A DNA stretch of 64,000 bases from NCBI RefSeq assembly GCF_014648275.1, contig NZ_BMQU01000003.1:297612-361611 (forward strand), given 5' to 3'. The stretch is from Pseudomonas laurentiana (GTDB taxonomy: Bacteria; Pseudomonadota; Gammaproteobacteria; Pseudomonadales; Pseudomonadaceae). Below, one piece after another: positions 8,401 to 30,036 of the stretch (the stretch's first letter is position 1; every line of letters begins with the position of its first letter). The notes under the pieces were generated by a model that was not told the DNA's origin, made no database searches, and saw only the letters and a list, made by a program, of their open reading frames with translations. The position numbers and the translations under genes are program-made.

Positions 8401-8484
8401 GGTCTGACCTCCGAGGGCTCGTGAGCACGCGCTGAGTCATCAGCGCATGGCGGCAGGCATGTTGAGCCACCCTGGCCTTCGGAT

Positions 8485-9390: not shown

Positions 9391-9437
9391 ATCCTGTTCC
9401 CCGTATTCAGATGTCTTTGCAGTCCTGAAAGCAACGC

Positions 9438-10778
9438 CTAAGGATTGCCGGCCCTGGCCTGGGCGGTTTGAGGCTCATTGACAAAACGTTTGGCGAGGAA
9501 GCCATAAAGCAGATAACCGAACGCAAGCACCAGTGTGCCACCGAACACGGCATCTTTGCCGCAGGCATAGAGGGCATATAGCGAATAGGCGACGGCAATC
9601 AACAACACGAGCGTATTACGCGAGTTGATCGCGGACGAGGCCTTGGCCTTGTACATCATTACCAGCAGCCCGGTGAGCGCTGTCACGTAGGGAATCAGGT
9701 TGGTCACCGCCGCCAGGTTGACCAGTTTGCTGAACTGGGCGCTGGCATTGGGCGAGATGGTCGATAGCGCCATGAGTGTCTGCAATACGCCGCAGACGAT
9801 CATGCCGACGATGGGGGCATTCAGCGCGCTGACCTTGCTGAACAGTTTTGGGAACATGCCCTGATCGGCGGTCATCTTGGCCGTTTGCGCCAGGGTGAAC
9901 TGCCACCCCAGCAGTGAACCAACGCACGCCATCACGGCCAGGGCCATGATGATGTTGCCGACCGTTGGGTTGAAAATGTGTGCATAGACGAGTGCGAAGG
10001 GGGCTGACGCATTGGCCAGCTCGGCGTTGGGGATGATGCCCTGGATGACGGTGGTCGACAGCACGTACACCACGGCGGCGCCCAGTGTTCCGAACAGGCA
10101 GGCCAGGGGTACCGTGCGTTTGGGGTCCTCCACTGCATCCGAGGCCTGTGCTGCCGACTCCATGCCCAGAAATGCCCACAGGGTCAAGGGAATGGCCTTG
10201 CTGACCGCTTCGGAGATCGGCAGGCTGTTCGGGTTCCAGGCCGCAGCCAGTACGTCGGGCTTGAACCAGAACCAGCCAATGAGGCTCAACCCGGCCACCG
10301 GGATGATCACGCCCCAGACCGTAATCGCGCCAATCTTGCCGGTGATGCTCGGGCCGCCAAAGTTGGCCAGTGTGGTCAGCCACAGCAGGCCAACCGTACC
10401 GATGAACAGCGGAATGGCGCCGCTGCCCAGCCACGGCACGAATGACGTCATGTAACCCACAGCTGAAATGGCGACGGCGACGTTGGCGATGGCCAGCGAG
10501 AGAAAGTACAGGTACGAACAGAGAAAGAACCCGGACTTTGCGTGCGCTTCTTCGGTATAGGCCGACAATCCGCCCGATCGTGCGCAAAAAATACCGCATT
10601 GGGAAAAACAGTAGGCGATGGCCATGGAGCCGATGGCCGTCACCACCCACGACAACAACGAGACCGCTCCGAGTTGGGCCATGCTTGTGGGCAGCATGAT
10701 GATGCCGGAGCCCATCATGTTGACCGTCACTAGCGTGGTCAGCCCCACGAGGCTCATTTTCTTGCTTGAATCAGCCAT
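9438..10778 (-). CDS. potE: APC-family amino acid/polyamine antiporter, PotE-like
   Basis: 446 residues with twelve predicted helices and an AAGGAG site before the ATG. The first helix VTVNMMGSGIIMLPTSMAQLG and TLWAFLGMESAAQASDAVEDP are typical of the PotE / CadB branch of the APC superfamily, which swaps an external basic amino acid for its decarboxylation product. Its place directly behind two basic amino acid decarboxylases (78 bases from the second) argues for ornithine/putrescine or lysine/cadaverine exchange, removing protons from the cytoplasm. PotE fits best from length and the SpeF-like neighbour; exact substrate is not proven. Confidence 0.82.
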   Translation of the reverse strand: MADSSKKMSLVGLTTLVTVNMMGSGIIMLPTSMAQLGAVSLLSWVVTAIGSMAIAYCFSQCGIFCARSGGLSAYTEEAHAKSGFFLCSYLYFLSLAIANVAVAISAVGYMTSFVPWLGSGAIPLFIGTVGLLWLTTLANFGGPSITGKIGAITVWGVIIPVAGLSLIGWFWFKPDVLAAAWNPNSLPISEAVSKAIPLTLWAFLGMESAAQASDAVEDPKRTVPLACLFGTLGAAVVYVLSTTVIQGIIPNAELANASAPFALVYAHIFNPTVGNIIMALAVMACVGSLLGWQFTLAQTAKMTADQGMFPKLFSKVSALNAPIVGMIVCGVLQTLMALSTISPNASAQFSKLVNLAAVTNLIPYVTALTGLLVMMYKAKASSAINSRNTLVLLIAVAYSLYALYACGKDAVFGGTLVLAFGYLLYGFLAKRFVNEPQTAQARAGNP

Positions 10779-10856
10779 CTGAAAACTCCTTGCGCTCTCA
10801 AAGCACTGACCCTGAGTCCGGCGGCTTACTGCGTGCCGCAGGGGAGGGGTTAAACA

Positions 10857-13157
10857 CTATTGTTTGACCACATACACCCTGTAGATTGGCCGCCCCTGGT
10901 CGTCACGCTCAATCTCGATGCCATGGTTGTCGTGTTCGAAACCCGGAAAGTGGCCGTCGAACAACTCCATGGCCAGCAAGTAATCGACGATGGCCTTTTT
11001 GTCGGCACCGGCTTTCTCCCCCGGCATCATCAGCGGTATGCCTGGTGGGTAGGGAACGATCTGCACGGCGACCGTTCGATCGAGCATGTCGCGTACGGCA
11101 ATCTGCTCTATTTCGCCGCGTACCAGCCTGGCGTAAGTGGCGCGCGGGGAGGTCACCGGGTCTGGCAGCAGGGTATAGGCGGCATCCATGTTGTGGAGCA
11201 TCTTCGAGGCGAGCATGTCCTGGTGCATCTGCTCGGCCAGGTCCTTCAGGCCCATGTCGCAGTAACGATCACCATGACTGGCGACCAGGTCGGGCAACAC
11301 CTGTTCCAGTGGCGAGTTGTTGTCATAGTGCTTCTTGAATTCCATCAGTCCTGCGACCAATGTGCCCCATTTGCCTTTGGTCACGCCGATGCTGAACAAC
11401 AGCAGTATCGAGTAGGGTTCGGTCTTTTCCACCACCGTTCCACGACTGGCCAGGAAGGTCGAGACCAAAGGGGCCGGGATGCCGCTCGGCTCCATTGCAC
11501 CTTCAAGCGTCTGGCCGGGGGTCAGGACTGTGACTTTGATCGGGTCAAGCATGCAGTAGTCGTCACCCAGGTCGCCGAACCCGTGCCAACTGGCCGTTGG
11601 CTTGAGCACCCAGGACTCACCACGGTGCAGCGTGTGCGGGTCGAGTTCGGCGAAGGGCACACCGTTGACTTCATCCGGTTGCCAGACGCCAAACCACCAG
11701 TCGTTGGGGTCACGCTCATGCACTTCGTTGTTCAGGCGGACCATGGCCTGGCGAAAGGCGATGGCTTCGCTGATCGACTCGTCGGTGAGGTACTCGCCGG
11801 CATCGTCCATCATCTTCGACGAGACATCGATAGACGCGATGATGCTGTACTGCGGAGACGTCGAGGTGTGCATCATGAACGCTTCGTTGAACAGTGCCGG
11901 CTTGACCGGCACCTTGCCCGAGCGGATGTGGATCATGGAGGCTTGTGACAACGCCGCCAGCAGTTTGTGGGTCGAGTGGGTAACGGTCACCGTCGCATCA
12001 TCGGGGTGACGCTCGCCGCGGTGCATGCCATAGCGTCCTTCGTACAGCGTATTGAAGCGCGCATAGGCGAACCAGGCTTCATCGTAGTGGATACGGTCGA
12101 CGCTCTGGCTCAGTTCTCGGGTGGTGACCTGAACGTTGTAGCACAGGCCATCGTAGGTCGAGTTGGTCAGTACGGCCAGTACCGGGCGTGCCTGCTTATG
12201 GATCGCCAAGGGGCTGTCGGCACGCTTCTGTGCCACCGCTGCCGGTGTCAATTCGCTGCGCGGCACTGGGCCGATCAGGCCCCGCGCATTACGGCGTGGG
12301 CGCAAATAGAGCGGTACCGCACCGGACATGTTCAACGCATAGTTCAACGATTTATGGCAATTGCGGTCAACCAGCACGGCATCGCCGTCGGTCACGGCCG
12401 AGTGCAGGACAATCTGGTTGCTCGCTGAGCTGCCACCCATCGAAAAGAAGGTGTAATCGGCGCCGAACACGCGTGCGGCATACCTTTCCGCTTCATCCAC
12501 CGGGCCTGAATGGTCGTTCAGCGAGCCCAGTTCGCCCACTGAAACACTGAGGTCCGAACGCAACATTTGCTCGCCGTAGAAGTCGAGAAAGCTACGTCCG
12601 ACGGCGGTTTTCATGAAGGCCGTGCCGCCCGTATGGCCCGGGGTGTGCCAGGAGTATTCATGGGTGCCGGCGAAGTTGACCAAGGCACCAAAGAAGGGTG
12701 GCAGGATGCTGTCGAGATAGCGACGGGCAGCTGTTTCGATGCGCCCGGCGATGAACTGGGGACTGTCTTCGGGTTGCCAGATAACGCCGTCGATGTTCTC
12801 GACGAATGCCAGCGGAACCTTGCTCTGGTTCGCCTGGCTCATGCCCAGCATGATGGGCAGTTGTCCTGTGCGCCGGCGTATCAAGCGAATGAGTTGCAGC
12901 GCCTGTTCGGGAGCGGCCTCGCACAGCCCCCAACCAATAATGGCGCAGCTGTAGGCTGAGTTGGCACTGATGGCAATCTCTGCTTCATCCAGCGACCCTA
13001 CCAGTTCAACCTCCAGTTCATGCTCATGCAGCGCTTCTGCGATGGCGTGGGCACTGCGCACAATGATGCTGTCGTCGTGCGCCTTGGCGTCGATCACGAT
13101 CAGGACCGGAAAACGTTGCACCATGTCGGCGGGTAAACGCGTTTGCGATCGACTCAT
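10857..13157 (-). CDS. Orn/Lys/Arg decarboxylase, LdcA/AdiA-like
   Basis: 766 residues, GGGAG before the ATG. A wing domain (about 15-145) with a response-regulator-like fold precedes the PLP fold: PGHTGG (173-178), DRNCHKS (264-270) and the Schiff-base lysine K398 in THSTHK. The C-terminal part has YPPGIPLMMPGE, a family landmark. The GELGSLNDHSGPV segment and length place it with the lysine/arginine type rather than the ornithine type encoded just upstream (36-base gap). In pseudomonads such enzymes include LdcA, the lysine decarboxylase. Arginine or lysine is the likely substrate; the choice is not settled by sequence. Confidence 0.85.
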   Translation of the reverse strand: MSRSQTRLPADMVQRFPVLIVIDAKAHDDSIIVRSAHAIAEALHEHELEVELVGSLDEAEIAISANSAYSCAIIGWGLCEAAPEQALQLIRLIRRRTGQLPIMLGMSQANQSKVPLAFVENIDGVIWQPEDSPQFIAGRIETAARRYLDSILPPFFGALVNFAGTHEYSWHTPGHTGGTAFMKTAVGRSFLDFYGEQMLRSDLSVSVGELGSLNDHSGPVDEAERYAARVFGADYTFFSMGGSSASNQIVLHSAVTDGDAVLVDRNCHKSLNYALNMSGAVPLYLRPRRNARGLIGPVPRSELTPAAVAQKRADSPLAIHKQARPVLAVLTNSTYDGLCYNVQVTTRELSQSVDRIHYDEAWFAYARFNTLYEGRYGMHRGERHPDDATVTVTHSTHKLLAALSQASMIHIRSGKVPVKPALFNEAFMMHTSTSPQYSIIASIDVSSKMMDDAGEYLTDESISEAIAFRQAMVRLNNEVHERDPNDWWFGVWQPDEVNGVPFAELDPHTLHRGESWVLKPTASWHGFGDLGDDYCMLDPIKVTVLTPGQTLEGAMEPSGIPAPLVSTFLASRGTVVEKTEPYSILLLFSIGVTKGKWGTLVAGLMEFKKHYDNNSPLEQVLPDLVASHGDRYCDMGLKDLAEQMHQDMLASKMLHNMDAAYTLLPDPVTSPRATYARLVRGEIEQIAVRDMLDRTVAVQIVPYPPGIPLMMPGEKAGADKKAIVDYLLAMELFDGHFPGFEHDNHGIEIERDDQGRPIYRVYVVKQ

Positions 13158-13193
13158 AGGGCGGCTCCCGGAGGGTGTGTAGTGGGGGTTGCA

Positions 13194-15374
13194 TCAAGTC
13201 TTGAGCACGTAGCCATAAGCGCGGGTGCGTCCACCTTCCTGTTTCAAGTAGACGCCCTGCAGTTCAGGGGTGAAGCCGGGCAATTGATTGATGCCTTCCT
13301 CCAGGACCAGGAAATACTTCAAGACCGCTCCGCCCCATACTTCGCCGGGTACAACACAGAGCACGCCTGGTGGGTAGGGCAAGGCGCCTTCGGCAGCGAT
13401 GCGGCCATCGGCGTCTGCCAGTGCGACCAACTCGACATTGCCGCGCATGTATTGAATCTGGGCGTCCTGAGGGTTCAGTGCCTTTTTCGGAAAATGCGCC
13501 TTGCGGAACATGTCTTTCTGCAATTGTTGAACGTTATGCCGACGGTAAAGGTCGTGCATCTCCTGACAGAGCTGGCGGATCGTGTAGCCGTTATAGCGCG
13601 CCTGATACTGCTCATAGAGGGTCGGCAGCACCCGGCTCATGGGCGCGTTATCGTTGATGAAGCGCTCGAAGCGTGCAATTTGTGCAGCCAGATGACTCAT
13701 CTTTGCCCAATCTTCGGCGGGGGTCAGCAGGAACAGGATCGAGTTGAGGTCGCACTTCTCCGGAACAATGCCGTTCTCGCGCAGGAAGTTGGCCAGGATG
13801 CCGGCATGAATGCCGAAGTCGGCGTAGCTGCCGTCGGCGGAGTTGATACCCGGTGTTGTAAACAGCAGTTTGCAGGGGTCGATGAAATACTGTTTATCGG
13901 CATAACCTGGGAAAGCGTGCCAGCGCTCTCCCGGGTGAAACTCGAAGAAGCGAATGTCCTTGGCGATCTCATCGGTTGGGTGGTCTTGCCATGGACGGCC
14001 ATCAAGGGTGTCAGGCACGAATGGGCGAACGAGTGTGCAGGCTTCCAGAATCAATTTGCGCGCATTGATGCCGAATTTGATGCAGTCGTCCCACAGCCGC
14101 AGGCCACTGCGACCGGAATGGATGCGTGCATTGACGTCCAGGGATGCAAACAACGGATAGAACGGGCTGGTGGAGGCCTGGGCCATGAACGAATTGTTCA
14201 AGCGGGCATGATTACAGTAGCGTGCCTGTCCTTTGATGTGCCGGTCTTTTTTGTGGATCTGCGAGGCCTGAGAAAATCCGGCTTGCTGCTTGTGTACTGA
14301 ATGAGTAACGAAAATGCCTGGGTCGTTTTCGTTGAGATCCAGCAGCAGGGGCGAGCAGTCCTTCATCATCGGTATGAACTGTTCGTAACCTACCCACGCG
14401 GAGTCGAAGAGGATGTAGTCGCACAGTGTGCCGATACGGTCCACTACCTGGCGGGCGTTATAAATAGTGCCGTCATAGGTGCCCAACTGGATGATCGCCA
14501 GACGAAACGGCCGCGCCAGCGTTGCCTTGTCTGGTGCGACTTCGCTGACCAGCTGGCGCAGGTAGCTTTCGTCGAAACAGTGAGCATCGATACCGCCGAT
14601 GAAGCCATAGGGATTACGCGCGGTCTCCAGGTACACCGGAACGCCGCCCGACTGGAGTAAGGCGCCCTGATGGTTGGACTTATGGTTGTTGCGGTCGAAC
14701 AAGACCAGATCACCTGGTGTGATCAGCGCGTTGGTGACCACCTTGTTGGAGGCTGAAGTGCCATTGAGCACGAAGTAGGTCTTGTCGGCGTTGAATACCT
14801 GCGCGGCATGTTTTTGTGCAAGCAGCGCCGGGCCTTCATGGATCAGCAGGTCGCCCAGCTTGACATCAGCATTGCACCTGTCGGCACGAAACAGTGTTTC
14901 GCCGAAGAAGTCGAAGAATTGTCGGCCAGCCGGATGTTTACGAAAGAACTGGCCCCCCTGGTGCCCTGGGCAGGCAAATGTTGAACTGGCCGCCTCCGTG
15001 TAGTGTTCAAGTGCGTCGAAAAACGGCGGCAGCAGGGTCTCCTCGTAGTGTCTGGCGGCGGTCTCCAGTTGGTGGCCGTAATAGTCGGCATTACTGCTGG
15101 AAGGGTCGAACACGCCATTGACCTGCAGCAGTACGTCTTGCACACGCTTGTAGTTTTCAAGGGCACGTTTGCCCTCTTGTGCCACAACCAGGAAAATCGG
15201 GATATCGAAGCCGTTACGCTTGATAGCCTCAAGGGCACCTGCCAACACATCGTCCAGCGAAAATACCGCCACGGCGACGTCGGTGTAATCGGTCTGGTCG
15301 AGGGAAACCACTTCTCGGTTGGTATGGAAACAGGCACGAACCGGATGATTGGCGGCGACTTTCAAGGCATTCAT
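13194..15374 (-). CDS. speC: Ornithine decarboxylase, SpeC/SpeF type
   Basis: I set the start at the ATG at 15374 behind GAGAGG, giving 726 residues; upstream in-frame codons (to 15548) would add a tail absent from SpeF as I recall it. The PLP enzyme converts ornithine to putrescine and CO2. Landmarks: CPGHQGG (135-141), DRNNHKSNHQGALLQ (228-242), active-site K362 in THSVHK, and YPPGVLCVVPGE near the C-terminus. It is strikingly close to E. coli SpeF along its length. It heads the operon with the second decarboxylase and the PotE-like antiporter, the same logic as speF-potE. I found no clear SpeFL-like arrest peptide upstream. Confidence 0.9.
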   Translation of the reverse strand: MNALKVAANHPVRACFHTNREVVSLDQTDYTDVAVAVFSLDDVLAGALEAIKRNGFDIPIFLVVAQEGKRALENYKRVQDVLLQVNGVFDPSSSNADYYGHQLETAARHYEETLLPPFFDALEHYTEAASSTFACPGHQGGQFFRKHPAGRQFFDFFGETLFRADRCNADVKLGDLLIHEGPALLAQKHAAQVFNADKTYFVLNGTSASNKVVTNALITPGDLVLFDRNNHKSNHQGALLQSGGVPVYLETARNPYGFIGGIDAHCFDESYLRQLVSEVAPDKATLARPFRLAIIQLGTYDGTIYNARQVVDRIGTLCDYILFDSAWVGYEQFIPMMKDCSPLLLDLNENDPGIFVTHSVHKQQAGFSQASQIHKKDRHIKGQARYCNHARLNNSFMAQASTSPFYPLFASLDVNARIHSGRSGLRLWDDCIKFGINARKLILEACTLVRPFVPDTLDGRPWQDHPTDEIAKDIRFFEFHPGERWHAFPGYADKQYFIDPCKLLFTTPGINSADGSYADFGIHAGILANFLRENGIVPEKCDLNSILFLLTPAEDWAKMSHLAAQIARFERFINDNAPMSRVLPTLYEQYQARYNGYTIRQLCQEMHDLYRRHNVQQLQKDMFRKAHFPKKALNPQDAQIQYMRGNVELVALADADGRIAAEGALPYPPGVLCVVPGEVWGGAVLKYFLVLEEGINQLPGFTPELQGVYLKQEGGRTRAYGYVLKT

Positions 15375-16983: not shown

Positions 16984-18063
16984 CTAGACCACGGATGCAT
17001 CACCGAGGAAGGCCAAGATCTCATTGACTGTGCTGCGTGCGGTGCGTGCTACGCCGATCAACGTGGCAGAAGCCGAACCTGTCCACTCGCCATAACCGAC
17101 CAGCCATAGCCGTGGCTCTTGGGTCGAGTGAGTGCCTTCAACCTCAACGCGGCCTTCCGTGTTGATCACCCCAAGCGTATCCAGGTGCTGAAGGGCGGGC
17201 CTGAATCCGGTACACCAGATCACCACATCCACGGCAGATTCAGTTCCATCGGCCCACATCACACCGTTGCGAGTGAAATGTTCGAAAGGGCGTACAGACG
17301 TGAGCACTTTACGCTCACGGGCTTCAACAACGGGTGGCACCATCACAATGTCTCCCAAACCGCCGACGGGCTGGTCGATGAGACGTCCCTCTTGTTGAGC
17401 CTTCAAACGCTCAGTGGCGCGCTCGAAAAGCACCCGGCCATCGACGTCGTCAGGCAAAAACACTGGCTCAGCAGGGGTTACCCACGTGGTCTCGGCGACC
17501 TTGGAGACTTCTGCCAGAATCTGCGCCCCGGAATTCCCGCCACCCACCACCAGCACCTTCTTGCCCGTAAATACGTGCGCTTCAACATAGTGCGCAGAGT
17601 GCAGCTGCCTACCAGCGAACCGATCGGCATCGGGGTAGTGAGGTATGTAGGGGTTGCTCCAGGTACCTGTCGCGCTGATTACAACTTTGGCATCCCAATG
17701 CCTGGCGTCAGAATGCACGCGCAAGCCTGACGCTGTGCGCTCCACAGACGTGACCCGTACTGGGCGTTCGACGGGAAACTGGTAACGCTGCTCGTACTGG
17801 CTGAGGTATTCGATCACATGATTTCGTGTGGGATAGCCATCGTGCGCAGGTGGCATCATCCAGCCAGGGATTGAACTCCACGTGGACGGTGAGAACAGGC
17901 GCAGTGAGTTCCAGCCGTGTCGCCAGGCGCCTCCCGGTGCTTCCTCTGCATCGAGGACGACGAACGAAAGCTGGGTGCGGCGCAGGAAATACGCGACAGC
18001 CAAGGCTGATTGGCCCCCACCGATAATGACGATGTCTAGTTGATTGCCAAGCGGGTGAGCCAT
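16984..18063 (-). CDS. arsO: ArsO-like NAD(P)H flavin monooxygenase
   Basis: About 359 residues from the ATG at 18063; an ATG at 18078 is the alternative and adds five residues, but the AGG-containing site fits the inner one. Two dinucleotide folds are visible: FAD site [16 protein letters not shown] near the N-terminus, and the NADPH site [12 protein letters not shown] about 160 residues on. [13 protein letters not shown] is the usual family link. ArsO-type enzymes occur in ars operons and are proposed to oxidise arsenic species. It lies 27 bases upstream of the ArsP-type permease. Assignment leans on context; other small FMO-type oxidases look alike. Confidence 0.72.
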
Positions 18064-18309
18064 GGGAGGGGGCCTCATATCAATGCGGGGCGGTGCCTAG
18101 TGTAGCGACTCTGTTTGGGCGTCAACTGATCTAGCTCACAAAGCCACTGCACTGGCTGGTTAAATACGAAAATACGGATATAGGATTAAGCCGATGTCAG
18201 GTAAAAATGCGCTATCAGATGGCTGTGCTCTGCATTTCTATAGCGTTTCGTGAAAGATACGGGCTTCTTGAGTCTGCATCTATCCACGGCACGCGGGCGC
18301 CTCTTTACT

Positions 18310-18331
18310 ATATATCTGGAAAAACATATAT
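18310..18331. promoter_or_regulatory. Candidate ArsR operator overlapping a -10 region
   Basis: ATATATCT (18310-18317) and ACATATAT (18324-18331) form a near-perfect inverted repeat with a six-base centre; seven of eight positions pair. A -10-like TACTAT (18307-18312) overlaps its left arm. ArsR/SmtB repressors bind AT-rich dyads of this shape over promoters. It lies 150 bases before arsR. Binding is inferred. Confidence 0.6.
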
Positions 18332-18343
18332 TTGAGGAGCCAT

Positions 18344-18367
18344 ATGAGTTCCGGAGCTTGGCAATGA
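18344..18367 (+). CDS. Seven-codon leader ORF upstream of arsR
   Basis: Directly after the operator, TTGAGGAGCCAT is a strong ribosome site for ATG at 18344, which opens a frame of only seven codons (MSSGAWQ) ended by TGA at 18365. The site is better than that of arsR itself. It may be a translated leader minigene, a relic of an old start, or chance. Nothing is known of its function; no conservation could be tested. Confidence 0.3.
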   Translation: MSSGAWQ

Positions 18368-18480
18368 CTCACGCTGCCCGGTAACGATTAACAGGCCTGA
18401 TTCATACCGCCACACGCTTCACGAGCGCCATGAACGTACCAAGATGTTCATGCAGGTTAAGACCCAACGTTGAGACCCCT

Positions 18481-18837
18481 ATGGCTGACCACCTGACGCC
18501 AACCACCGTATTTAAATGCCTGGCCGATGAAACGCGCGTTCGCCTGATGTTGCTCGTTACCCGCGAGGAAGAACTATGCGTTTGCGAACTCACCTGTGCA
18601 CTCGATGAGAGCCAGCCCAAGGTTTCCCGGCATCTGGCACAGCTGCGCAATTGCGGGTTGCTGGAGGATCGTCGGCAAGGTCAGTGGGTTTATTACCGTC
18701 TGCATCCCAACCTCCCGGATTGGGTGGTCGACGTACTGAAAACCACCCTTGAAGCAAACCAGCACTGGCTCCGTCCCGACGCCAAGCGCCTCGACGTGAT
18801 GGGGGACCGTCCGCAGCGCTTGTCTGCTTGCTGCTGA
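18481..18837 (+). CDS. arsR: ArsR-type arsenic-responsive repressor
   Basis: 118 residues of the ArsR/SmtB winged-helix family. The metalloid site is ELCVCELTC with C33, C35 and C39, as in classical ArsR; the recognition helix is [18 protein letters not shown] and the wing [12 protein letters not shown] Cys-Cys pair at the very C-terminus could add thiol ligands. It heads the plus-strand arsenic operon (73 bases to arsH). I prefer the ATG at 18481; an upstream ATG at 18430 in frame would add 17 residues. Arsenite is the expected inducer, releasing the operator at 18310-18331. Confidence 0.9.
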
Positions 18838-18910
18838 GTTGATGCATGCCCGAGCTGTGCTCGGCGTTTATGAGATAGCCCGCAGGGCGCACGTGCTTAG
18901 GAATCAATCC

Positions 18911-19627
18911 ATGACTGAAGACCATCTCCCTAATCTCTATACTGAACTGGTCGAACTGCCAACTCCCGATAAGTTCGGCAGTACGCTATCGGTCACGCAC
19001 AAGCCACGCATCCTGCTGCTATACGGCTCGACCCGCGAGCGCTCGTTTAGCCGCTTGCTGACCGAGGAAGCGGCTCGTCTGCTGGAGCATTTCGGTGCCG
19101 AAACTCGGATATTCAATCCATCCGGTCTGCCTCTACCTGACGATGCCCCGGACCACCATCCCAAGGTGCAGGAACTCCGGGAACTGATGCAGTGGTCGGA
19201 AGGGCAGGTCTGGTGCTCACCTGAGCGTCACGGTGCGATGACTGCTGTGTTCAAGGCTCAGATTGACTGGGTACCGTTGGCCATGGGAGCCATGCGTCCG
19301 ACCCAGGGCAAGACCTTGGCAGTGATGCAAGTCTGTGGAGGGTCTCAGTCTTTCAATGTGGTAAACCAACTGCGCGTGCTCGGACGTTGGATGCGCATGT
19401 TCACCATCCCGAACCAGTCATCGGTACCTAAGGCTTACCTGGAATTCGACGAAGAGGGCCGTATGAAACCGTCGACGTTCTATGATCGCGTCGTCGACGT
19501 GATGGAAGAACTGGTGAAATTCACCCTGCTGTTGCGTGAGCGCTCTGACTATTTGGTCGACCGCTATTCCGAGCGAAAGGAGTCGGCAGAAGAACTCTCG
19601 AGGCGGGTCAATCAACGCGCCATTTGA
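18911..19627 (+). CDS. arsH: ArsH NADPH-dependent FMN reductase / organoarsenical oxidase
   Basis: 238 residues with the flavodoxin-like fold of Ars[24 protein letters not shown] for the FMN phosphate loop, [20 protein letters not shown], and the C-terminal helix ending in the family-typical [20 protein letters not shown]. ArsH oxidises trivalent methylated or aromatic arsenicals to less toxic pentavalent forms and reduces quinones. The start at 18911 follows TAGGA. It sits between arsR and the GAPDH gene in the same operon. Confidence 0.93.
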
Positions 19628-19738
19628 AGAGCGCGTCATCGTTTCACACTACCCGTACGTCATTATCAACGACATCGGCCAGTTCGACATTGCCACGTCG
19701 TGACTGCTTGCAGGCCACTGTTTCAAGGGAACAAACAC

Positions 19739-20743
19739 ATGCGTATAAAAGTAGGTATCAACGGTTTCGGTCGTATCGGTCGTCTCGCCCTGCGCGCTGC
19801 CTGGGGCTGGCCGGAGTTTGAGTTCGTACAGATCAACGACCCGGCAGGCGATGCAGCAACGCATGCTCACCTGATCAACTTCGACTCGGTGCATGGCCGT
19901 TGGCACCACGAAGCCGGGGCTGAAGGCGATCAGGTCGTGATCGATGGCAAGCGCATCAAGGTCACGGCCAACAAGGCGATTGCCGATACCGACTGGTCGG
20001 GCTGCGATCTGGTGATTGAGGCCAGTGGCAAGATGAAAACCGTTGCGGTACTTCAGGCCTATCTGGATCAGGGTGTGAAGCGTGTGGTGGTGTGCGCGCC
20101 GGTCAAGGAAAAAGGTGCACTGAACGTTGTCATGGGGGTTAACCAGCATCTGTTCGACCCGTTACAGCACCGTATCGTGACTGCCGCTTCCTGCACGACC
20201 AACTGCCTGGCCCCCGTGGTCAAGGTGATCCATGAGAGCCTGGGTATCCGCCATGGCTCGATCACCACCATTCACGACCTGACCAATACCCAGAGCATCC
20301 TCGATCAACCGCACAAGGATTTGCGCCGTGCCCGTGCCTCGGGCATGAGCTTGATCCCGACCACTACAGGGTCGGCTACCGCAATCGCCGAGATTTTCCC
20401 TGAGTTGCGCGGCAAGCTGAACGGCCATGCCGTGCGCGTGCCGCTGGCTAACGCTTCACTCACAGACTGCGTGTTCGAAGTCGAGCGTGCTACTTCGGTG
20501 GATGAGGTCAATGCGCTGCTCAAGGCTGCGGCAGAAGGCCCACTGAACAATATCCTCGGTTACGAGGAGCGCCCGCTGGTTTCCATCGACTACCGGACCG
20601 ACCCGCGCTCTTCGATCATTGATGCGCTGTCGACCCTGGTGGTCAATGACACCCAGGTGAAGATCTACGCCTGGTACGACAACGAATGGGGGTACGCCAA
20701 CCGTGCTGTCGAGCTGGCCAGGCTGGTCGGTTTGGCGGGCTAA
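19739..20743 (+). CDS. ArsJ-associated glyceraldehyde-3-phosphate dehydrogenase
   Basis: 334 residues of the GAPDH family: NAD site [15 protein letters not shown] at the N-terminus, catalytic Cys152 in AASCTTNC, and C-terminal [10 protein letters not shown]. The start at 19739 follows AAGGGA. Encoded 12 bases before arsJ. In this pairing the enzyme uses arsenate in place of phosphate to form 1-arseno-3-phosphoglycerate, which ArsJ exports and which then decays to arsenate outside. That role is known for such pairs; here it is assigned by neighbourhood, because the sequence alone also fits housekeeping GAPDH. Confidence 0.9.
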
Positions 20744-20755
20744 AGGGGAGTGACC

Positions 20756-21976
20756 ATGCACGTGCTGTCAGCCCTATCCCCGCAAGTGCGTCAGTACCTG
20801 CTGGTCACCGGTAACTACTGGGCGTTTACGCTCACCGATGGCGCGTTGCGCATGTTGGTGGTGCTGCATTTCCATACGTTGGGCTATACACCGCTGCAGA
20901 TCGCCGCGCTGTTCCTGTTCTATGAGATCTTCGGTGTGATCACCAATCTGGTGGGCGGCTATCTCGGCGCTCGCCTGGGGCTGAACCGCACCATGAACAT
21001 CGGGTTGGGCCTACAGGTTGCCGCCCTATTGATGTTGACCGTCCCCGCCGCCTGGCTGACGCTTCCCTGGGTGATGGGGGCACAGGCGATGTCGGGTATC
21101 GCCAAAGACCTCAACAAGATGAGTGCCAAGAGTTCCATCAAGCTGCTGGTGCCCGGCAACCAGCAAGGCAAGCTCTATCAGTGGGTAGCGGTCCTTACCG
21201 GCTCAAAGAACGCGCTGAAAGGGGTTGGTTTTTTCATTGGTGGTGCGTTGCTGGCTTTGCTCGGTTTCACCAGCGCAGTACTGGCGATGGCTGCAGCACT
21301 GGCACTGATCTGGATCGCCAGCCTATTCCTGTTGAGTCACGACTTGGGCAAGGCCAACGCCAAACCCAGGTTCCGCGATATCCTGTCGAAAAGCCGGGCC
21401 ATCAACATGTTGTCGGCGGCACGGCTATTCCTCTTCGGTGCCCGTGATGTGTGGTTCGTGGTGGCCTTGCCGGTCTACCTGAGCACGGTTTTCGCCTGGG
21501 ATTTCTGGCAGGTTGGCAGTTTTCTCGCTGTCTGGGTCATTGGCTACGGCGTGGTGCAGTCGTTCGCTCCCTACATCACCGGAAAAAAACGTGGTCATGT
21601 TCCGGATGGTCGAGCTGCTTTTGTTTGGGCTTCGCTACTGGCAGGCCTGCCGGCGATCATTGCTTTCGGTCTTTCGGCAGGCGGGTCACCGCAGATTGTG
21701 CTGTTGGGCGGGCTACTGGTGTTTGGCGCGTTGTTTGCCGTCAACTCGTCGCTGCACAGTTACCTGATCGTGTCCTACGCCAAGGAGGACGGTGTGTCGT
21801 TGGACGTGGGCTTCTACTATATGTCCAATGCAATGGGCCGATTACTGGGCACGGTGTTGTCGGGCTGGATTTATCAACGTCATGGGCTGGAGGCGTGTTT
21901 GTGGGTATCCACGGCGTTCGTCTTGCTGGCCGCACTGATTTCTACGGCCTTGCCTCGGCACGCTACTGTGGACTAA
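20756..21976 (+). CDS. arsJ: ArsJ organoarsenical efflux MFS permease
   Basis: 406 residues with about twelve helices; the ATG at 20756 follows GGGGAG (a GTG six bases earlier is less likely). Family landmarks include RQYLLVTGNYWAFTLTDGALRML, SGIAKDLNKMSAKSSIKLL and TGSKNALKGVGFF. ArsJ exports 1-arseno-3-phosphoglycerate made by the GAPDH encoded just upstream, giving arsenate resistance without reduction by ArsC. It closes the operon. A GC-rich inverted repeat about 50 bases downstream may mark its end. Confidence 0.92.
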   Translation: MHVLSALSPQVRQYLLVTGNYWAFTLTDGALRMLVVLHFHTLGYTPLQIAALFLFYEIFGVITNLVGGYLGARLGLNRTMNIGLGLQVAALLMLTVPAAWLTLPWVMGAQAMSGIAKDLNKMSAKSSIKLLVPGNQQGKLYQWVAVLTGSKNALKGVGFFIGGALLALLGFTSAVLAMAAALALIWIASLFLLSHDLGKANAKPRFRDILSKSRAINMLSAARLFLFGARDVWFVVALPVYLSTVFAWDFWQVGSFLAVWVIGYGVVQSFAPYITGKKRGHVPDGRAAFVWASLLAGLPAIIAFGLSAGGSPQIVLLGGLLVFGALFAVNSSLHSYLIVSYAKEDGVSLDVGFYYMSNAMGRLLGTVLSGWIYQRHGLEACLWVSTAFVLLAALISTALPRHATVD

Positions 21977-22021
21977 CGCATCGGATAGGCAGCACAGGGC
22001 TGTTGACCATCCCCATTTTCA

Positions 22022-22041
22022 GGCGCCGCCTCGCTGGCGCC
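22022..22041 (+). terminator. GC-rich hairpin after arsJ (weak terminator candidate)
   Basis: GGCGCC at 22022-22027 pairs with GGCGCC at 22036-22041 around an eight-base loop, 45 bases after the arsJ stop. There is no T-run behind it, so it may be a pause or processing site and not a true factor-independent terminator. Confidence 0.3.
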
Positions 22042-22242
22042 GTCCAATACTCTGCACTAACGTTCAATCAATCGGCCTGAACCACTCAACAGGCCGCTCA
22101 ACGCTGTGTGTTCTCCGCTAGAACGCTCCACGGAACTGTGCTGCATTTCGTGCCTCGGCCACTGATAAGTTCCGCGCTGTTTTCACTCAGGATGTTCGGG
22201 GCACGATTATCTTCGTATGGATCAAGCGGAGTGACAAACACT

Positions 22243-25074
22243 ATGCTGGATGCCCGCCCAAACCCGACACTCACATTGGAATACTGTGCCGAACGTCCCA
22301 TATTCATGGATTTTCTACGGCATGCGGCAAGTTCACCCGACGCAACGGCGGTCATCTCGCAAGACGCGACGTGCAGCTATCGTCAGCTTGAAGCAATAAG
22401 TCTGGGCATCGCGTCATTCTTGATTGCCCATGGCGCTGCAGCGTCTGATCGTGTTGTGATTGTCTCGAGTCGCTGTGCAGGGCTCGTATATGCAATGCTT
22501 GGTGCAGCGCGTGCCGGGTTGACGTTCACGGTTGCCGATATCGCTTACCCGCCCGCGCGCATAGATCAAATCATTCAAGCGCTCCAGCCTTCCTTCATCC
22601 TGCTAGGCGGTGAAGCAACCGTTGATCTCAATCTTGAGCGCATGGGGCCAAGGGCAGAGCATGCTGATCCGCAGGTTGTCAGCATTCCGGAAATGCCCAC
22701 TGAAGCATTACAGGCGTTCCCCTTTTCCTCGGGTGCGTTGCCCGAAGTCGACCCCCGTCAGCCGGCCTACATCACCTTTACCTCGGGAAGTACGGGTGAA
22801 CCCAAGGGGATTGTGGCCCAGCATGGGCCGTTGGTTCACTTTGTCGAATGGCATGTCCGGCGTCATTCCTTATCAAAACACGATTGTTTTTCCTTGCTTT
22901 CAGGGCTTGGCCATGACCCTGTATACAGGGATATATTTACGCCGCTTTCTATTGGCGCGAAGGTCATTATTCCGGCGTCGTCAACGGTCACAGATCCTTC
23001 GGCGTTGGCAACGTGGATACAGACCAATCGAATATCCATCATTCACCTGACGCCACCCTTGGGGCGACTTGTTGAAGCGGGTGCGAACATTAATGGGGTT
23101 GAACTCACTGACCTGCGGTATTTTTTCTGGGGGGGCGATGCGTTAAACAGTAGTTTGTACGAACACATACGCCTTATTGCCCCCCATTCGATCAGTGTGA
23201 ATTTCTACGGCACGACGGAAACCCCGCAGGCGATGGCGTACCATCAAATCGATCCTGAGGCGAGCAATGCCAGAATTCCACTGGGGAAAGGGATTGAAGG
23301 GGCACAGTTGCTTGTCGTGGATGAATCGAATCGGTTGGTCAGCGAAGGGGAGGTCGGCGAAATTCTTATACGCAGCCCTTATTTATCGCTCGGTTACTGG
23401 AGGGATATAGAAAAAACCAGAGAACGCTTTGTCGTGAATCCATTTACGCATGAAGAGAACGACCTCTGCTATAGAACCGGCGACCTTGGGACATACCTTG
23501 CGGATGGTAGTGCGATCTTTCTGGGGCGAGGCGATCATCAGGTAAAGATTCGTGGTCATCGAATTGAACTCGCTGAAATCGAAGGTGCGCTGTCACGGCA
23601 TGCCTTGATCACGCAGTGTGTTGTCCTGGCGATCAATGACCGTTCAGGTACTAAGCTGGCAGCATGCTGCGTTACAAAAACGCCGGTGTCATCTATTGAG
23701 TTACGCGAGCATGTCAGCCGTCAGCTACCCGATTATATGGTGCCGGCACTGTTCGTTTTCCTGGATGATATTCCACTTACGCCAAACGGGAAGATCGACA
23801 GGCAGGCGTTGTCTTCGCAGCTAGGGTGCACGGATCCGGTACCCCTGAACGCAAGTCAGAGTTTGTCTCCGCTCGCACTGAAGCTGGCAGATGCCTGGGC
23901 GGAAATACTGAAGGTCCCCAGTATCGATGCAAACTTATCGTTCGTGGAACTCGGTGGGGACTCGCTGTCGTTTGTCCAGGCTTCAATGGCCCTTGAGACG
24001 CTGCTTGGACAGTTGCCAGCGCGATGGGAGGTCACGCCATTACGTGCGCTTTGTGAACAGGCTGGTGAGGCAAGAATATCAGCGCCATTTCTTCGGGAAA
24101 TGGAACTTCCCGTACTCTTGCGGGTCGTGGCTATAGTGCTTATTGTTGTCGGGCATTTCAATGTGTTCTCGACGTGGCCCATTGTTGGCGAAACGACGAC
24201 GCTATTCATCGTGTCGGGCATCAGTTTGGCTAGATTTCAATTCAACGCTATCGCTGAACGCGGTAATGTGCGTCTGCTGGTACGGTCCATTGCCAGTATC
24301 GTGGTGCCAACCATTTTATATACGCTCTTGATTCAGCTGCTGTTCGGTAAAGTTCATTGGCAGGCCGTATTACTGATATCGAACTGGTTTCCACCGATGC
24401 TCACTGAGGGCTTTGCGTATTGGTACATTGAGGTGCTCGTGCAGATGCTCTTGGCCATTGGGTTTGTGCTGTCGTTTGCACGCGTCAGGGCAATAATAAT
24501 CGCTGATCCATTCCGCTGTTTGATCGTGGCGTCGTGTGCATTGGCAGTCGCCGGCGTTTTGATAAATGCGTATGTATTTGATGCCAGCGTATTGTACAAC
24601 CGGGTGCCACAGCACTATCTTGCGGTCATGGTGCTGGGAATGGCCATTCATTATGCCGATACACGTCAGCAGAAGTGGATCGCCAGTGCGGTGACTGTCA
24701 TGGTGATGGGGTGGCAAGATGTGCTTGCCGTCTTCGACAGTGGATCGCACACCCTCGCAATGCTTGAACATATTGATGTAGGCGTTCCTGCCGTACTCGG
24801 CGTGATTTGGGTTCGGTCTATCCCTGTGCCAGACATCATCGCGCGGGCACTTGCATTAATCGCATCGTCAACGCTGTTTATCTATCTGACGCATTTTCAA
24901 TTTCAGTCCGTGGCCCGTCGCATAGTCGATCAACCGGTGTTCGCGGTAGTCATTGCCATCGTCGGTGGCATCGCGGTTGGCTATGTCTGGAACAAGGGGG
25001 CTCGGATGGTGTTGATGCGCTGGAGTGGAGGAGGGAAGAGGAGCCGCGCTGAGAAAATTGAGCGAGTCGCATGA
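22243..25074 (+). CDS. Adenylation - carrier protein - membrane acyltransferase fusion (NRPS-like)
   Basis: 943 residues from the ATG at 22243 (GGAG 11 bases upstream); GTG at 22108 would add 45 residues. Domains: an adenylation domain (about 10-525) with FTSGSTGEPKG (179-189), NFYGTTE, YRTGDLG and NGKIDRQ (Lys517); a carrier domain with phosphopantetheine Ser574 in LGGDSL; then nine to ten membrane helices (from about 622) like the acyltransferase-3 family, with VVGHFNVF (His638) and FIYLTHF near the end. The LSGLGHDPVYRDIFTPL stretch resembles Lys2-type adenylation domains; its Asp225 matches the amino-group-binding Asp of NRPS domains. It probably activates an amino acid and passes it to an envelope or small-molecule acceptor. 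GC is visibly lower than in neighbours, suggesting acquisition. Confidence 0.82.
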   Translation: MLDARPNPTLTLEYCAERPIFMDFLRHAASSPDATAVISQDATCSYRQLEAISLGIASFLIAHGAAASDRVVIVSSRCAGLVYAMLGAARAGLTFTVADIAYPPARIDQIIQALQPSFILLGGEATVDLNLERMGPRAEHADPQVVSIPEMPTEALQAFPFSSGALPEVDPRQPAYITFTSGSTGEPKGIVAQHGPLVHFVEWHVRRHSLSKHDCFSLLSGLGHDPVYRDIFTPLSIGAKVIIPASSTVTDPSALATWIQTNRISIIHLTPPLGRLVEAGANINGVELTDLRYFFWGGDALNSSLYEHIRLIAPHSISVNFYGTTETPQAMAYHQIDPEASNARIPLGKGIEGAQLLVVDESNRLVSEGEVGEILIRSPYLSLGYWRDIEKTRERFVVNPFTHEENDLCYRTGDLGTYLADGSAIFLGRGDHQVKIRGHRIELAEIEGALSRHALITQCVVLAINDRSGTKLAACCVTKTPVSSIELREHVSRQLPDYMVPALFVFLDDIPLTPNGKIDRQALSSQLGCTDPVPLNASQSLSPLALKLADAWAEILKVPSIDANLSFVELGGDSLSFVQASMALETLLGQLPARWEVTPLRALCEQAGEARISAPFLREMELPVLLRVVAIVLIVVGHFNVFSTWPIVGETTTLFIVSGISLARFQFNAIAERGNVRLLVRSIASIVVPTILYTLLIQLLFGKVHWQAVLLISNWFPPMLTEGFAYWYIEVLVQMLLAIGFVLSFARVRAIIIADPFRCLIVASCALAVAGVLINAYVFDASVLYNRVPQHYLAVMVLGMAIHYADTRQQKWIASAVTVMVMGWQDVLAVFDSGSHTLAMLEHIDVGVPAVLGVIWVRSIPVPDIIARALALIASSTLFIYLTHFQFQSVARRIVDQPVFAVVIAIVGGIAVGYVWNKGARMVLMRWSGGGKRSRAEKIERVA

Positions 25075-25162: not shown

Positions 25163-25837
25163 TCAACGAAGGCTGAAATCCGAGGGATCGAACCTATCGG
25201 TCGTGTCCATCCGAACATTTCGCAGGCTCGCTGTTTCCAGGTGCGATGCGTATAGAGGTTCAGAAAAATAGCTGATCAGGAGGGTGCGGCGGGGTGCGCC
25301 GATCGCGTTCAGACTGGCCGCATGCACTAAGTCGACATCAAACACCAAGATGTCACCCGCAGAGCCTGAAAGCTGCACAGACCGGGACTCGTCATTGAAG
25401 TCGAATGGCGGTTCTCCTTGCCCAGGGCGATGGCTGCCAGGGACGATACGTGTCGCGCCGTTTTCGGGGCCGTAATCGTCGAAATAAGCTAAAGCGCTCA
25501 CGATGTCGCCTGGCCGTTGCGCCGACAAGTCGCGGTGCAGCTGCTGATGTCCACCCCCTGCAAGGGGGTCGCGACCCTCCACGTGTGAGAGGAAGAACCG
25601 CTCTCCAATCAACTCACCGACTACCGCCAGTACCTCCGGCAGACGACACACCGCTTGAACCTTCGAATCAGTGTCCAGCAGTGAGTGACGCCAGTCCATG
25701 CCACGCGGCACTGGCCATTGGTCCGACGGCTTCACGCCCGCATCGAATACGGCACGAAGGTCATCCAGCCACTCAGTCGGGATTGCGCGACGGAGCAGCA
25801 CATAACCCTCTCGATGGAGCTGTTCGCGGTCAGTCAT
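25163..25837 (-). CDS. PhyH-family Fe(II)/2-oxoglutarate oxygenase
   Basis: 224 residues of the phytanoyl-CoA dioxygenase fold. The iron triad is H101-x-D103 (LHRDLS) and H172 (VHAASLN), and R183 or R184 would bind 2-oxoglutarate. Because the Asp is present it should be a hydroxylase, unlike SyrB2-type halogenases where it is Ala or Gly. Such enzymes often act on amino acids, free or carrier-bound, in natural product pathways. It converges on the adenylation-acyltransferase gene (88-base gap) and sits 19 bases downstream of a hydrolase gene on its own strand. A functional link to either is only possible, not shown. Confidence 0.8.
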   Translation of the reverse strand: MTDREQLHREGYVLLRRAIPTEWLDDLRAVFDAGVKPSDQWPVPRGMDWRHSLLDTDSKVQAVCRLPEVLAVVGELIGERFFLSHVEGRDPLAGGGHQQLHRDLSAQRPGDIVSALAYFDDYGPENGATRIVPGSHRPGQGEPPFDFNDESRSVQLSGSAGDILVFDVDLVHAASLNAIGAPRRTLLISYFSEPLYASHLETASLRNVRMDTTDRFDPSDFSLR

Positions 25838-27492: not shown

Positions 27493-30036
27493 ATGGCACT
27501 GGAGACGGAGCAGTACAACGCAGAGCGCGAGCGCATCAACAAGCGTCGTGAGTACCTCGACCTGCAGGAATACCAACAGGAGCAGAACACCGGTCGACCC
27601 TGGGGCCTGGCGCTGTCGGGGGGCGGCATCCGCAGTGCCACGTTCTGCCTCGGGGTACTGCAAGCGCTGGCTCGGGCCCGACGCACCGATCGTTCGGAAG
27701 ACAAGCCACTGCTCGCACGTTTTGATTACCTTTCGACCGTCAGCGGTGGTGGCTACATCGGCTCATTTTTTTCCAGCTTGTTCCTGCCTAACCGGTTGCG
27801 AGGCACTGTAGCGGGACAGCCGCCGCAATCACCCTACGATGCCGCCCAGGATGCCTACGCGGTGTTTCGCTACGAGCCGCCGGGTAAGATCAGCACGGCT
27901 ACCGACTACTCCCGCGCACCCGTCGGCAGTGGCCCCGGCGCCTGGCTCAGGGAGAACGGGCGCTACCTGACGCCCACCGGTGGCGGCGACATGTTTTACG
28001 CGCTGGCGATGGCTTGGCGAAACTGGCTTTCACTGCATTTCGTGATCGGCATGCCGATGGTGCTTGCTTTGTCGTTTTTGTTCCTGGTGCAGACCAGCCT
28101 TGGCATCAACCTGTTTGTCTGGCCGCTGGTGGCGCTCGTGGTGCTGGCGCTGCCATGCGCCCTGGCCTATTGGCTGATTATTCCGCGGCAGAGCCTGACC
28201 GAGGCACCCAGTCTCGCCAACCTGGCGTACCGGGCCACGTTCGGCGTGGCTGCCGCGCTGCTGGTCTTGAGCCTATTGGCCTACGGGCTGGGTTATTCTC
28301 CGAGGGTCGCGGTGTTGGCCTTCTGTTTTGCGGTGATTGCCGGGTCAGGGCTGCTTATCACCTCGTTACTGGTGCGAAAGCTCGCGTTGAACGAAGAGGG
28401 CAACACGCTACGCAATTACCGTGTACTGATCACCCGCTATCTCAGCAATGCAATCATCGCGGTCGTTACCCTGTTGCTCCTGGCGAGCGTGGCAACCTTG
28501 GCGCAAGACATTTATAGCGTTCTGTTCAAGCAGTTCGGTCTGGTCAGCGTTGGCGTGCTGCCGACGCTGATCTGGTTAGTGCGCAAGTTGGCGCTGCTCA
28601 AGGATGAGAAAGCATTGCCAGCTTGGTCATTGAAGTTGCCGTTGGAGGTGCTGGCACTGATCGGCGGCACCTTGCTGGGCATGGTGGTGTGTCTGGTTTG
28701 GGCTTTGTTCGTGTTGTGGGTCGCAAACGGCGGCCGCGATCAGGTATTGAGTGCCCAAGGCAATCTCAGCTTGTTGATAGTGGGGGCACTGGCCTTGGCG
28801 CTGATTGTTGTGGCGGCCAGGTTCGTCGGTTTTCTCAACCTTTCCTCGCTACACACCTTTTACGCCTCGCGTCTGACGCGGGCCTACCTTGGTGCTTCCA
28901 ACGGCAGGCGCTTCACCGCCACCAGTGGTGCCAGGGAGCGGAGCGTTGCCGAGCCATTGGCTGATGACGACATCTCCCTGGAGACTTACTACGGGACACA
29001 GACGGCCGGCCCGCTGCACCTGATCAATGTGACCATGAACCTGACCGTCGACCCTGCGGAACAACTGGTGCAGCGTGACCGCAAGGGTAAACCCCTGTGC
29101 CTTGCGCCTCACGGCTGGACAGTTAACGGCGGGAGGCCGACGAACTACATGCTCGATGGCGTGAGTTATCAGCGAGGCCCGAGCCCCAGCCAACCTTCGG
29201 AAATCATGCTGCCGCTTAGCCTTGGGCAGTGGATTGGTACCTCCGGCGCCGCCTTCAGCACTGGGCTGGGACGCACCACGAGCTTGGGTATGTCCTTGGC
29301 ACTAGGCTTGGCCAACGTCCGCCTGGGGGTCTGGTGGTCCAGTCAGTTTCTCTCTGAAGGTGAAACACACTACCGGCACAAGGATCCGCGGTGGGTACGT
29401 CGATTCCCCACCCAGTCCTACCTGTTTTACGAGTTAACGGCGCATTTCCACGGGCATCGCCGAGACTTGCATTACCTTTCCGATGGCGGACATTTTGAAA
29501 ATACCGCCGCCTATGAGCTGGTTCGCCGCGAGCGTGATATCGCGCTGATCGTGGTATGTGACTGCGGCTGCGACCCTTCGTACCAATTTGACGACGTGGC
29601 CAACCTGGTTCGGCTGGCGAGGATCGACCAGCAATTGGACATCCGTGAAGACCTCACGGTGCAGCATCACCCAGTGCTCAGTCAGGTGTTCGGCAGTATC
29701 AGCCATTTCCAGCAACCACCCGCCAAAGACAGTAAAAAATGCGCGTTGCTACTCGACGTATTTGACACCACCGATGAAACCGAGCCCCCTTTGCCGCAGT
29801 GCCGGATCCTGGTGCTCAAACCGCGGCTGATTGCCTCGCTGACGCCGGACGTTTTCAATTATGCCCTGGCCAATGAAGCATTCCCGAACCAGACCACCGC
29901 CGATCAGTTCTTCGATGAGGCCCAGTTCGAAAGTTACCGCCAACTGGGCTTGAGCATTGGTCGTATGCTGTTTGGCGAAGAGGGTACTGTCGATCCGGTG
30001 AGCAGCGCGTTGTGGCATTACCTGAATCTTCCATGA
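27493..30036 (+). CDS. Patatin-like phospholipase with inserted membrane domain
   Basis: 847 residues. The start of a patatin fold is clear: oxyanion loop SGGGIRSA (42-49) and nucleophile Ser84 in STVSGGG. The catalytic Asp is D664 in LSDGGHFEN, 580 residues away. Between them, about 182-450, lie seven to nine predicted membrane helices, so the hydrolase is split by a membrane region. Patatins cleave acyl chains from phospholipids. There is no signal peptide, so the catalytic halves probably face the cytoplasm. C-terminal residues 665-847 include a Cys-rich VVCDCGCDPS. Divergent from the lipoprotein hydrolase. Physiological role unknown. Confidence 0.82.
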   Translation: MALETEQYNAERERINKRREYLDLQEYQQEQNTGRPWGLALSGGGIRSATFCLGVLQALARARRTDRSEDKPLLARFDYLSTVSGGGYIGSFFSSLFLPNRLRGTVAGQPPQSPYDAAQDAYAVFRYEPPGKISTATDYSRAPVGSGPGAWLRENGRYLTPTGGGDMFYALAMAWRNWLSLHFVIGMPMVLALSFLFLVQTSLGINLFVWPLVALVVLALPCALAYWLIIPRQSLTEAPSLANLAYRATFGVAAALLVLSLLAYGLGYSPRVAVLAFCFAVIAGSGLLITSLLVRKLALNEEGNTLRNYRVLITRYLSNAIIAVVTLLLLASVATLAQDIYSVLFKQFGLVSVGVLPTLIWLVRKLALLKDEKALPAWSLKLPLEVLALIGGTLLGMVVCLVWALFVLWVANGGRDQVLSAQGNLSLLIVGALALALIVVAARFVGFLNLSSLHTFYASRLTRAYLGASNGRRFTATSGARERSVAEPLADDDISLETYYGTQTAGPLHLINVTMNLTVDPAEQLVQRDRKGKPLCLAPHGWTVNGGRPTNYMLDGVSYQRGPSPSQPSEIMLPLSLGQWIGTSGAAFSTGLGRTTSLGMSLALGLANVRLGVWWSSQFLSEGETHYRHKDPRWVRRFPTQSYLFYELTAHFHGHRRDLHYLSDGGHFENTAAYELVRRERDIALIVVCDCGCDPSYQFDDVANLVRLARIDQQLDIREDLTVQHHPVLSQVFGSISHFQQPPAKDSKKCALLLDVFDTTDETEPPLPQCRILVLKPRLIASLTPDVFNYALANEAFPNQTTADQFFDEAQFESYRQLGLSIGRMLFGEEGTVDPVSSALWHYLNLP

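Follow-up and report, generated by a model that had tools for sequence, protein, structure and literature searches.

Can one polypeptide activate an amino acid, carry it and deliver it to an acceptor in the cell envelope? The question is raised by a single gene at positions 22243–25074 (forward strand, as are all of its features below) of a 64,000-nucleotide stretch of Pseudomonas laurentiana DNA (contig NZ_BMQU01000003.1), hereafter the window. The original prediction held that this gene may perform all three steps, which are divided among separate proteins in the Dlt and Alm systems, and that it does so with a different membrane acyltransferase. Our analysis supports that proposal in part: its domain content, its conserved active-site and pocket residues, the selection on each domain, the varying neighbours of what behaves as a stand-alone gene and the absence of a motif linked to coenzyme A (CoA) were all computed, while the substrate, the acceptor, the activity, the direction of transfer and the carrier arm as donor are what we infer from them. 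We regard the product, with a probability of roughly 55%, as a self-loading membrane aminoacyltransferase, probably acting on an envelope acceptor, in which the carrier arm would replace CoA.

The gene encodes 943 amino acids plus a stop codon (25072–25074), and its Pfam matches all exceed the curated cut-offs (AMP-binding, 8.8e-65; AMP-binding_C, 8.6e-12; PP-binding, 2.4e-7; Acyl_transf_3, 2.3e-9), confirming the predicted combination of an adenylation domain, a GGDS carrier and an acyltransferase-3 (AT3) membrane part. The adenylation domain occupies 22318–23793 (AMP-binding at residues 26–386, AMP-binding_C at 445–517) and the carrier domain 23881–24009 (residues 547–589), with the predicted phosphopantetheine site, Ser574 of the GGDS motif, at 23962–23964. 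The AT3-type membrane domain (24115–24984, residues 625–914) was assigned by Pfam and fold comparison, and PF01757 scored 37.2 bits in the whole protein and 42.0 bits for the domain alone against a cut-off of 31. Pfam matches of the 943-residue protein included no other acyltransferase family, no reductase domain and, at E ≤ 0.001, no Condensation domain. Because 12 named full-length relatives keep the start region M-x-x-x-RP-x-P, the ATG at 22243 is the likely start; a likely ribosome-binding site, GGAG (22228–22231), lies 11 nucleotides 5' of it, and a longer alternative open reading frame begins with GTG at 22108.

Relatives with more than 50% identity, here called close members, comprised 45 loci and 42 distinct proteins. 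The pocket code, Ser574 and the R-X10-H motif (Arg627 to His638, 24121–24156, in transmembrane helix (TMH) 1) are the same in all 42, and ratios of nonsynonymous to synonymous substitution (dN/dS) were 0.085–0.22 in 20 of 24 domain-by-pair values comparing the window gene with eight relatives (the other four were saturated), so the protein is conserved beyond chance. PF01757 was matched at E ≤ 1 in 12 of 14 aligned members, and catalytic-end residues of AT3 proteins are kept; R-X10-H, TMH6-Gly and TMH9-Tyr are all present. The predicted structure of the membrane part is almost entirely helical and shows the ten-helix TmAT fold in fold comparison; a search of solved-structure sequences with the AT3 alignment gave no match at E ≤ 10, and the full-length model was too poor for use (predicted local distance difference test (pLDDT) 58.8).

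TMH3 RxxR is highly conserved in AT3 proteins and is linked to CoA in published work (PMC9833829, PMC9558356, PMC12423673). At this position (24286–24297) the window protein reads Ser-Ile-Ala-Ser (682–685), and RxxR in register is missing from all 42 close members as against its presence in 25 of 26 canonical relatives (26 of 28 were used; L163 and L165 were dropped); an alignment-free count gave 0/42 and 24/26. The TMH2-Phe of FxxxxG is Leu in 42/42 close members and Phe in 26/26 canonical proteins, and the Glu five residues after Trp, kept in 22/26 canonical relatives, is absent from the 42. Because RxxR is missing throughout the close members, we class the membrane part as AT3-type but divergent, rather than as a canonical AT3 domain.

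The pocket positions, mapped with GrsA numbering (225, 226, 229, 268, 295, 297, 321, 329, 330 and 517), give the code DPRHFGFQAK, which corrects the predicted D-P-R-L-F-G-F-Q-A-K at position 4, occupied by His268; Asp225, Pro226 and Arg229 lie at 22915–22929. The code recurs unchanged at 32% identity in the distant relative L037, with variants in L039 (DMRHFGFQAK), L194 (DPRHFGLQAK) and L196 (DPRRFGVQAK), and HDPxxRD modules of other synthetases (n = 4) read DPRHAGFQAK, DPRHCGFQAK (twice) and DPRHLSCQIK. Codes of the form D/E-P/A-R-H/N may belong to side-chain-activated acidic amino acids (Lys2, ACV synthetase, microcystin synthetase); they were not found in print. Aligned with solved LgrA domains, Asp225 coincides with their Asp, and the model for adenylation domains of nonribosomal peptide synthetases, TIGR01733, scored 336.8–338.4 bits in the window protein, above its cut-off of 317.4, with the amine-binding Asp present.

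The earlier suggestion that this Asp indicates an alpha-amino acid holds insofar as an amine would suit Asp225; the domain, however, leans to Lys2, an activator of a side-chain carboxylate. Bit scores for TIGR03443 (Lys2) and TIGR01733, respectively, were 322.9 and 338.4 in the window protein, 361 and 353.7 in L006, 317.7 and 317 in L008, 282.3 and 279.5 in L037, and 256.6 and 313.2 in L039, as against 244.7–280.3 and 475.7–491.7 in five ordinary synthetase domains of relatives taken as controls. The balance of the two scores clearly separates the fusion group from the controls; the absolute TIGR03443 score is well above them only in the window protein, L006 and L008. According to PMC2823734, where delta-semialdehyde is named in the title of a cited reference, Lys2 reduces alpha-aminoadipate and hence activates a side-chain carboxylate. 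This profile lean hints that the fusion, too, may activate an acidic amino acid through its side-chain carboxyl; that the window protein shares the Lys2 chemistry is a guess by analogy.

Put together, the adenylation domain would activate an amino acid with ATP, Asp225 serving the amine, and the group would be loaded on the phosphopantetheine arm at Ser574. Because the domain leans to alpha-aminoadipate reductases, the amino acid may be an acidic one that is activated at the side-chain carboxylate, its free alpha-carboxylate being held by Arg229. The arm would then enter the cytosolic mouth of the fused AT3-type pore, taking the place of the acyl-CoA used by canonical family members, and His638 would assist in handing the group over to an acceptor in the envelope, at one of its hydroxyls or amines; a glycan or a lipid-linked sugar is the likeliest acceptor. 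Loss of RxxR fits a membrane domain fed by a tethered arm.

Such a protein would work like a one-chain Dlt- or Alm-type system while being a member of neither. DltB is of the MBOAT type, unlike the window membrane part with its PF01757 match, and the DltA models were reached only to 246.5 of 476 and 225.4 of 559.85 bits. The epsilon-poly-L-lysine synthetase Pls likewise combines adenylation and carrier domains with a membrane part at its C-terminus, but it bears condensation-like domains there; none were found in the window protein. Dlt (DltA-DltC-DltB) shares adenylation, carrier loading and transfer by a membrane acyltransferase, and Alm (AlmE-AlmF-AlmG, lipopolysaccharide glycylation) the activation and carriage of an amino acid for envelope modification (for DltA and AlmE, PMC11253843); Dlt uses several proteins where the window gene encodes one chain, and relative to Alm the window protein has a PF01757 domain of another acyltransferase class and another pocket code, with neither a separate carrier nor a lipid-A-acyltransferase-type transferase. 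Lys2 (TIGR03443; PMC2823734) has a related adenylation domain, with the HDPxxRD motif region and a carrier after it, and ends in a reductase where the window protein ends in a membrane acyltransferase; the full-length TIGR03443 model was matched over the adenylation part only (322.9 of 1030.1 bits). With AT3/TmAT proteins (OafB, OatA, HGSNAT) the window protein shares PF01757, R-X10-H, TMH6-Gly, TMH9-Tyr and the predicted fold, and it differs in its N-terminal adenylation-carrier fusion and in lacking RxxR and TMH2-Phe; the sections available of the AT3 review literature name SGNH and alanine-racemase fusions and no adenylation fusion (PMC9833829, PMC9558356, PMC12423673).

Distant relatives extend the architecture (10 of 11 in the last fusion set were used; L189 was dropped, the open reading frame caller having taken an antisense frame). 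L037 is a single 1401-residue frame (8630–12835) in which condensation and adenylation domains exceed their cut-offs, the carrier match falls below threshold and an AT3-type part was recognised by alignment; a condensation frame lies directly upstream in L039. Condensation, adenylation and Acyl_transf_3 all exceed their cut-offs in L194 (8976–13004, 1342 residues) and L196 (6891–10979, 1362 residues), with the carrier passing in L196 and recognised by its aligned serine in L194. L037, L194 and L196 are apparent single peptide-synthetase modules ending in a membrane acyltransferase, which in L194 and L196 stands where a release domain would be. The 1309-residue frame of L107 has an N-terminal extension before the conserved start that by eye, and with no domain scan, resembles frame noise. 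A second adenylation type, with codes such as S-Y-S-x-T-A-M-x-R-K and lacking the Asp, occurs in some distant fusions, whose substrates are probably not amino acids. We further suggest, tentatively and as a less probable extension of our reading, that an AT3-type pore fed in cis by the arm, with no use of CoA, might export an acidic amino acid linked through its side chain (gamma-glutamyl, beta-aspartyl or delta-aminoadipyl) onto an extracytoplasmic acceptor, and that in condensation-bearing relatives the pore might serve a one-module peptide synthetase as its release domain in the membrane.

Evidence on the acceptor comes from gene context. In L174, where the parts are split, a 655-residue adenylation protein with the GGDS motif, in which no carrier was matched at E 0.01, overlaps a 338-residue acyltransferase gene (41.4 bits), and one sugar transferase, three glycosyltransferases and three sulfotransferases lie in the vicinity. 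In L192 two glycosyltransferases are encoded at a distance of 3–5 kb, and in L188 a Wzy_C protein at about 3.5 kb. These contexts support a surface glycan as the likely acceptor in part of the family.

Several observations weigh against our reading. The glycan-cluster relatives have the adenylation domain without Asp, which may make their context a poor guide to other members, and the window gene itself is not near glycan genes. TIGR03443 scored lower in L039 (256.6) than in four of five controls, and L037 (282.3) barely exceeds the best control. The model of the membrane part is modest in confidence (pLDDT 64). TMH1-Arg, which simulations of OafB place at the CoA 3'-phosphate (PMC9833829), is retained, and in the alignment-free count [RK]xxR occurs in 3/11 distant fusions and in L174, whose RxxR speaks against a link between motif loss and the tethered arm.

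The gene neighbourhoods (53 of 55 loci were used; L105 and L113 were dropped) bear on the alternatives. Shared-neighbour single-linkage divided the close loci into 8 groups, which means at least that many contexts, with LysR and AraC regulators, a GGDEF-EAL protein and a sulfatase as recurrent neighbours. With no neighbour family common to all groups, the gene behaves as a unit of its own. The best surviving alternative, which we nevertheless consider unlikely, is that the fusion helps to build or alter a small molecule for secretion, for instance a metal chelator or a signal; its acyltransferase would release the amino acid onto a small acceptor, and the product would leave the cell. It draws on the extracytoplasmic function sigma factor-FecR-TonB receptor set that lies 3' of the gene in five Pseudomonas loci, all from a single neighbour group, on the likeness of condensation-bearing relatives to one-module peptide synthetases, on the existence of AT3 proteins that acylate antibiotics (PMC9558356) and on two Rhodococcus plasmid members directly 5' of an iron ABC transporter; the Rhodococcus members, however, have the adenylation type without Asp, and no biosynthetic or transport genes are common to the close loci. 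On these two plasmids the distant adenylation-carrier-acyltransferase genes and transporters span 7929–14195 (L040) and 8013–14476 (L042).

Less probable still is an acyltransferase that continues to use soluble acyl-CoA, acylating either the amino acid on the carrier or a surface sugar that has no relation to it, with the fusion only co-locating the activities. Known AT3 donors are acyl-CoAs (PMC9558356), and the retained TMH1-Arg and His638 and the RxxR of L174 agree with this view, yet RxxR, TMH2-Phe and the Glu after Trp have all gone from the 42 close members.

That the fusion belongs to the adjoining arsenic operon and handles an organoarsenical is highly improbable: it starts 266 bases 3' of arsJ on the same strand, beside arsO, arsR, arsH and the ArsJ-associated glyceraldehyde-3-phosphate dehydrogenase (GAPDH) gene, but L092 is the sole one of the other 41 distinct close loci to have, within five genes, a neighbour clustering with the window's ArsR, and none has counterparts of arsH, GAPDH or arsJ, so a conserved association was rejected.

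The arsenic cluster itself (16984–21976) comprises an ArsO-type monooxygenase, an ArsR/SmtB regulator, ArsH, the GAPDH and an ArsJ exporter (NCBIfam). A hairpin after arsJ (21977–22060) was rejected as a terminator, folding no better than shuffles (z −0.52); pattern scans between arsJ and the fusion gene found no terminator-like site and 1 promoter-like site against 2.5 in shuffles. Facing the fusion gene is a PhyH-type dioxygenase (25163–25837). Three loci, two of which (L092 and L094) represent a single shared region, have PhyH at most two genes from the fusion; it is carried by 17/76 genomes including that of the window, and occurs also with no fusion nearby; when eight such loci were compared with window positions 10001–36000, PhyH alone matched and the ars flank was missing, so its association with the fusion gene is a hint only. 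An 847-residue frame at 27493–30036 has only a short N-terminal patatin match. GC is 53.2% in the fusion gene and 59.4% elsewhere in the window. Lower GC had been read as a sign of transfer, which suits the window gene and five named relatives at 71–72% identity, all 6 to 10 points below their flanks, and fits the close loci unevenly (below the flanks in 26/45, not below in 19/45).

As to distribution, the membrane-domain profile matched 34/399 Pseudomonas genomes at E ≤ 1e-20, all in open frames of 931–1359 residues, 1/369 genomes of the class sample (the window's own), 9/398 of the phylum sample (the window's included) and 9/248 genomes, in 12 places, of the family sample around G1013; these counts are lower bounds, the best five or six candidates per genome having been scored. 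The 12 named full-length relatives (57–72% identity) are labelled Pseudomonas in eleven cases and Pantoea in one (57%), and among the 15 matches listed there was no second full-length copy in the window's genome. Distant relatives were found in other proteobacteria and on Rhodococcus plasmids; plasmid matches over more than 80% of the length came from 13 records, including Pseudorhodobacter turbinis, Rhodococcus gordoniae, R. fascians D188 and several Rhizobium. No adenylation-carrier-AT3 fusion was described in titles or abstract openings of the open-access literature among the matches listed.

If the self-loading aminoacyltransferase reading is true, nonribosomal amino-acid activation and membrane acyl transfer would be joined in one chain, giving a single-gene system for envelope aminoacylation. 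An arm-carrying family without the CoA-linked motif would also be a natural test of donor recognition by AT3 proteins, and the known release routes of peptide synthetases would be extended, through the condensation-bearing relatives, by a membrane acyltransferase.
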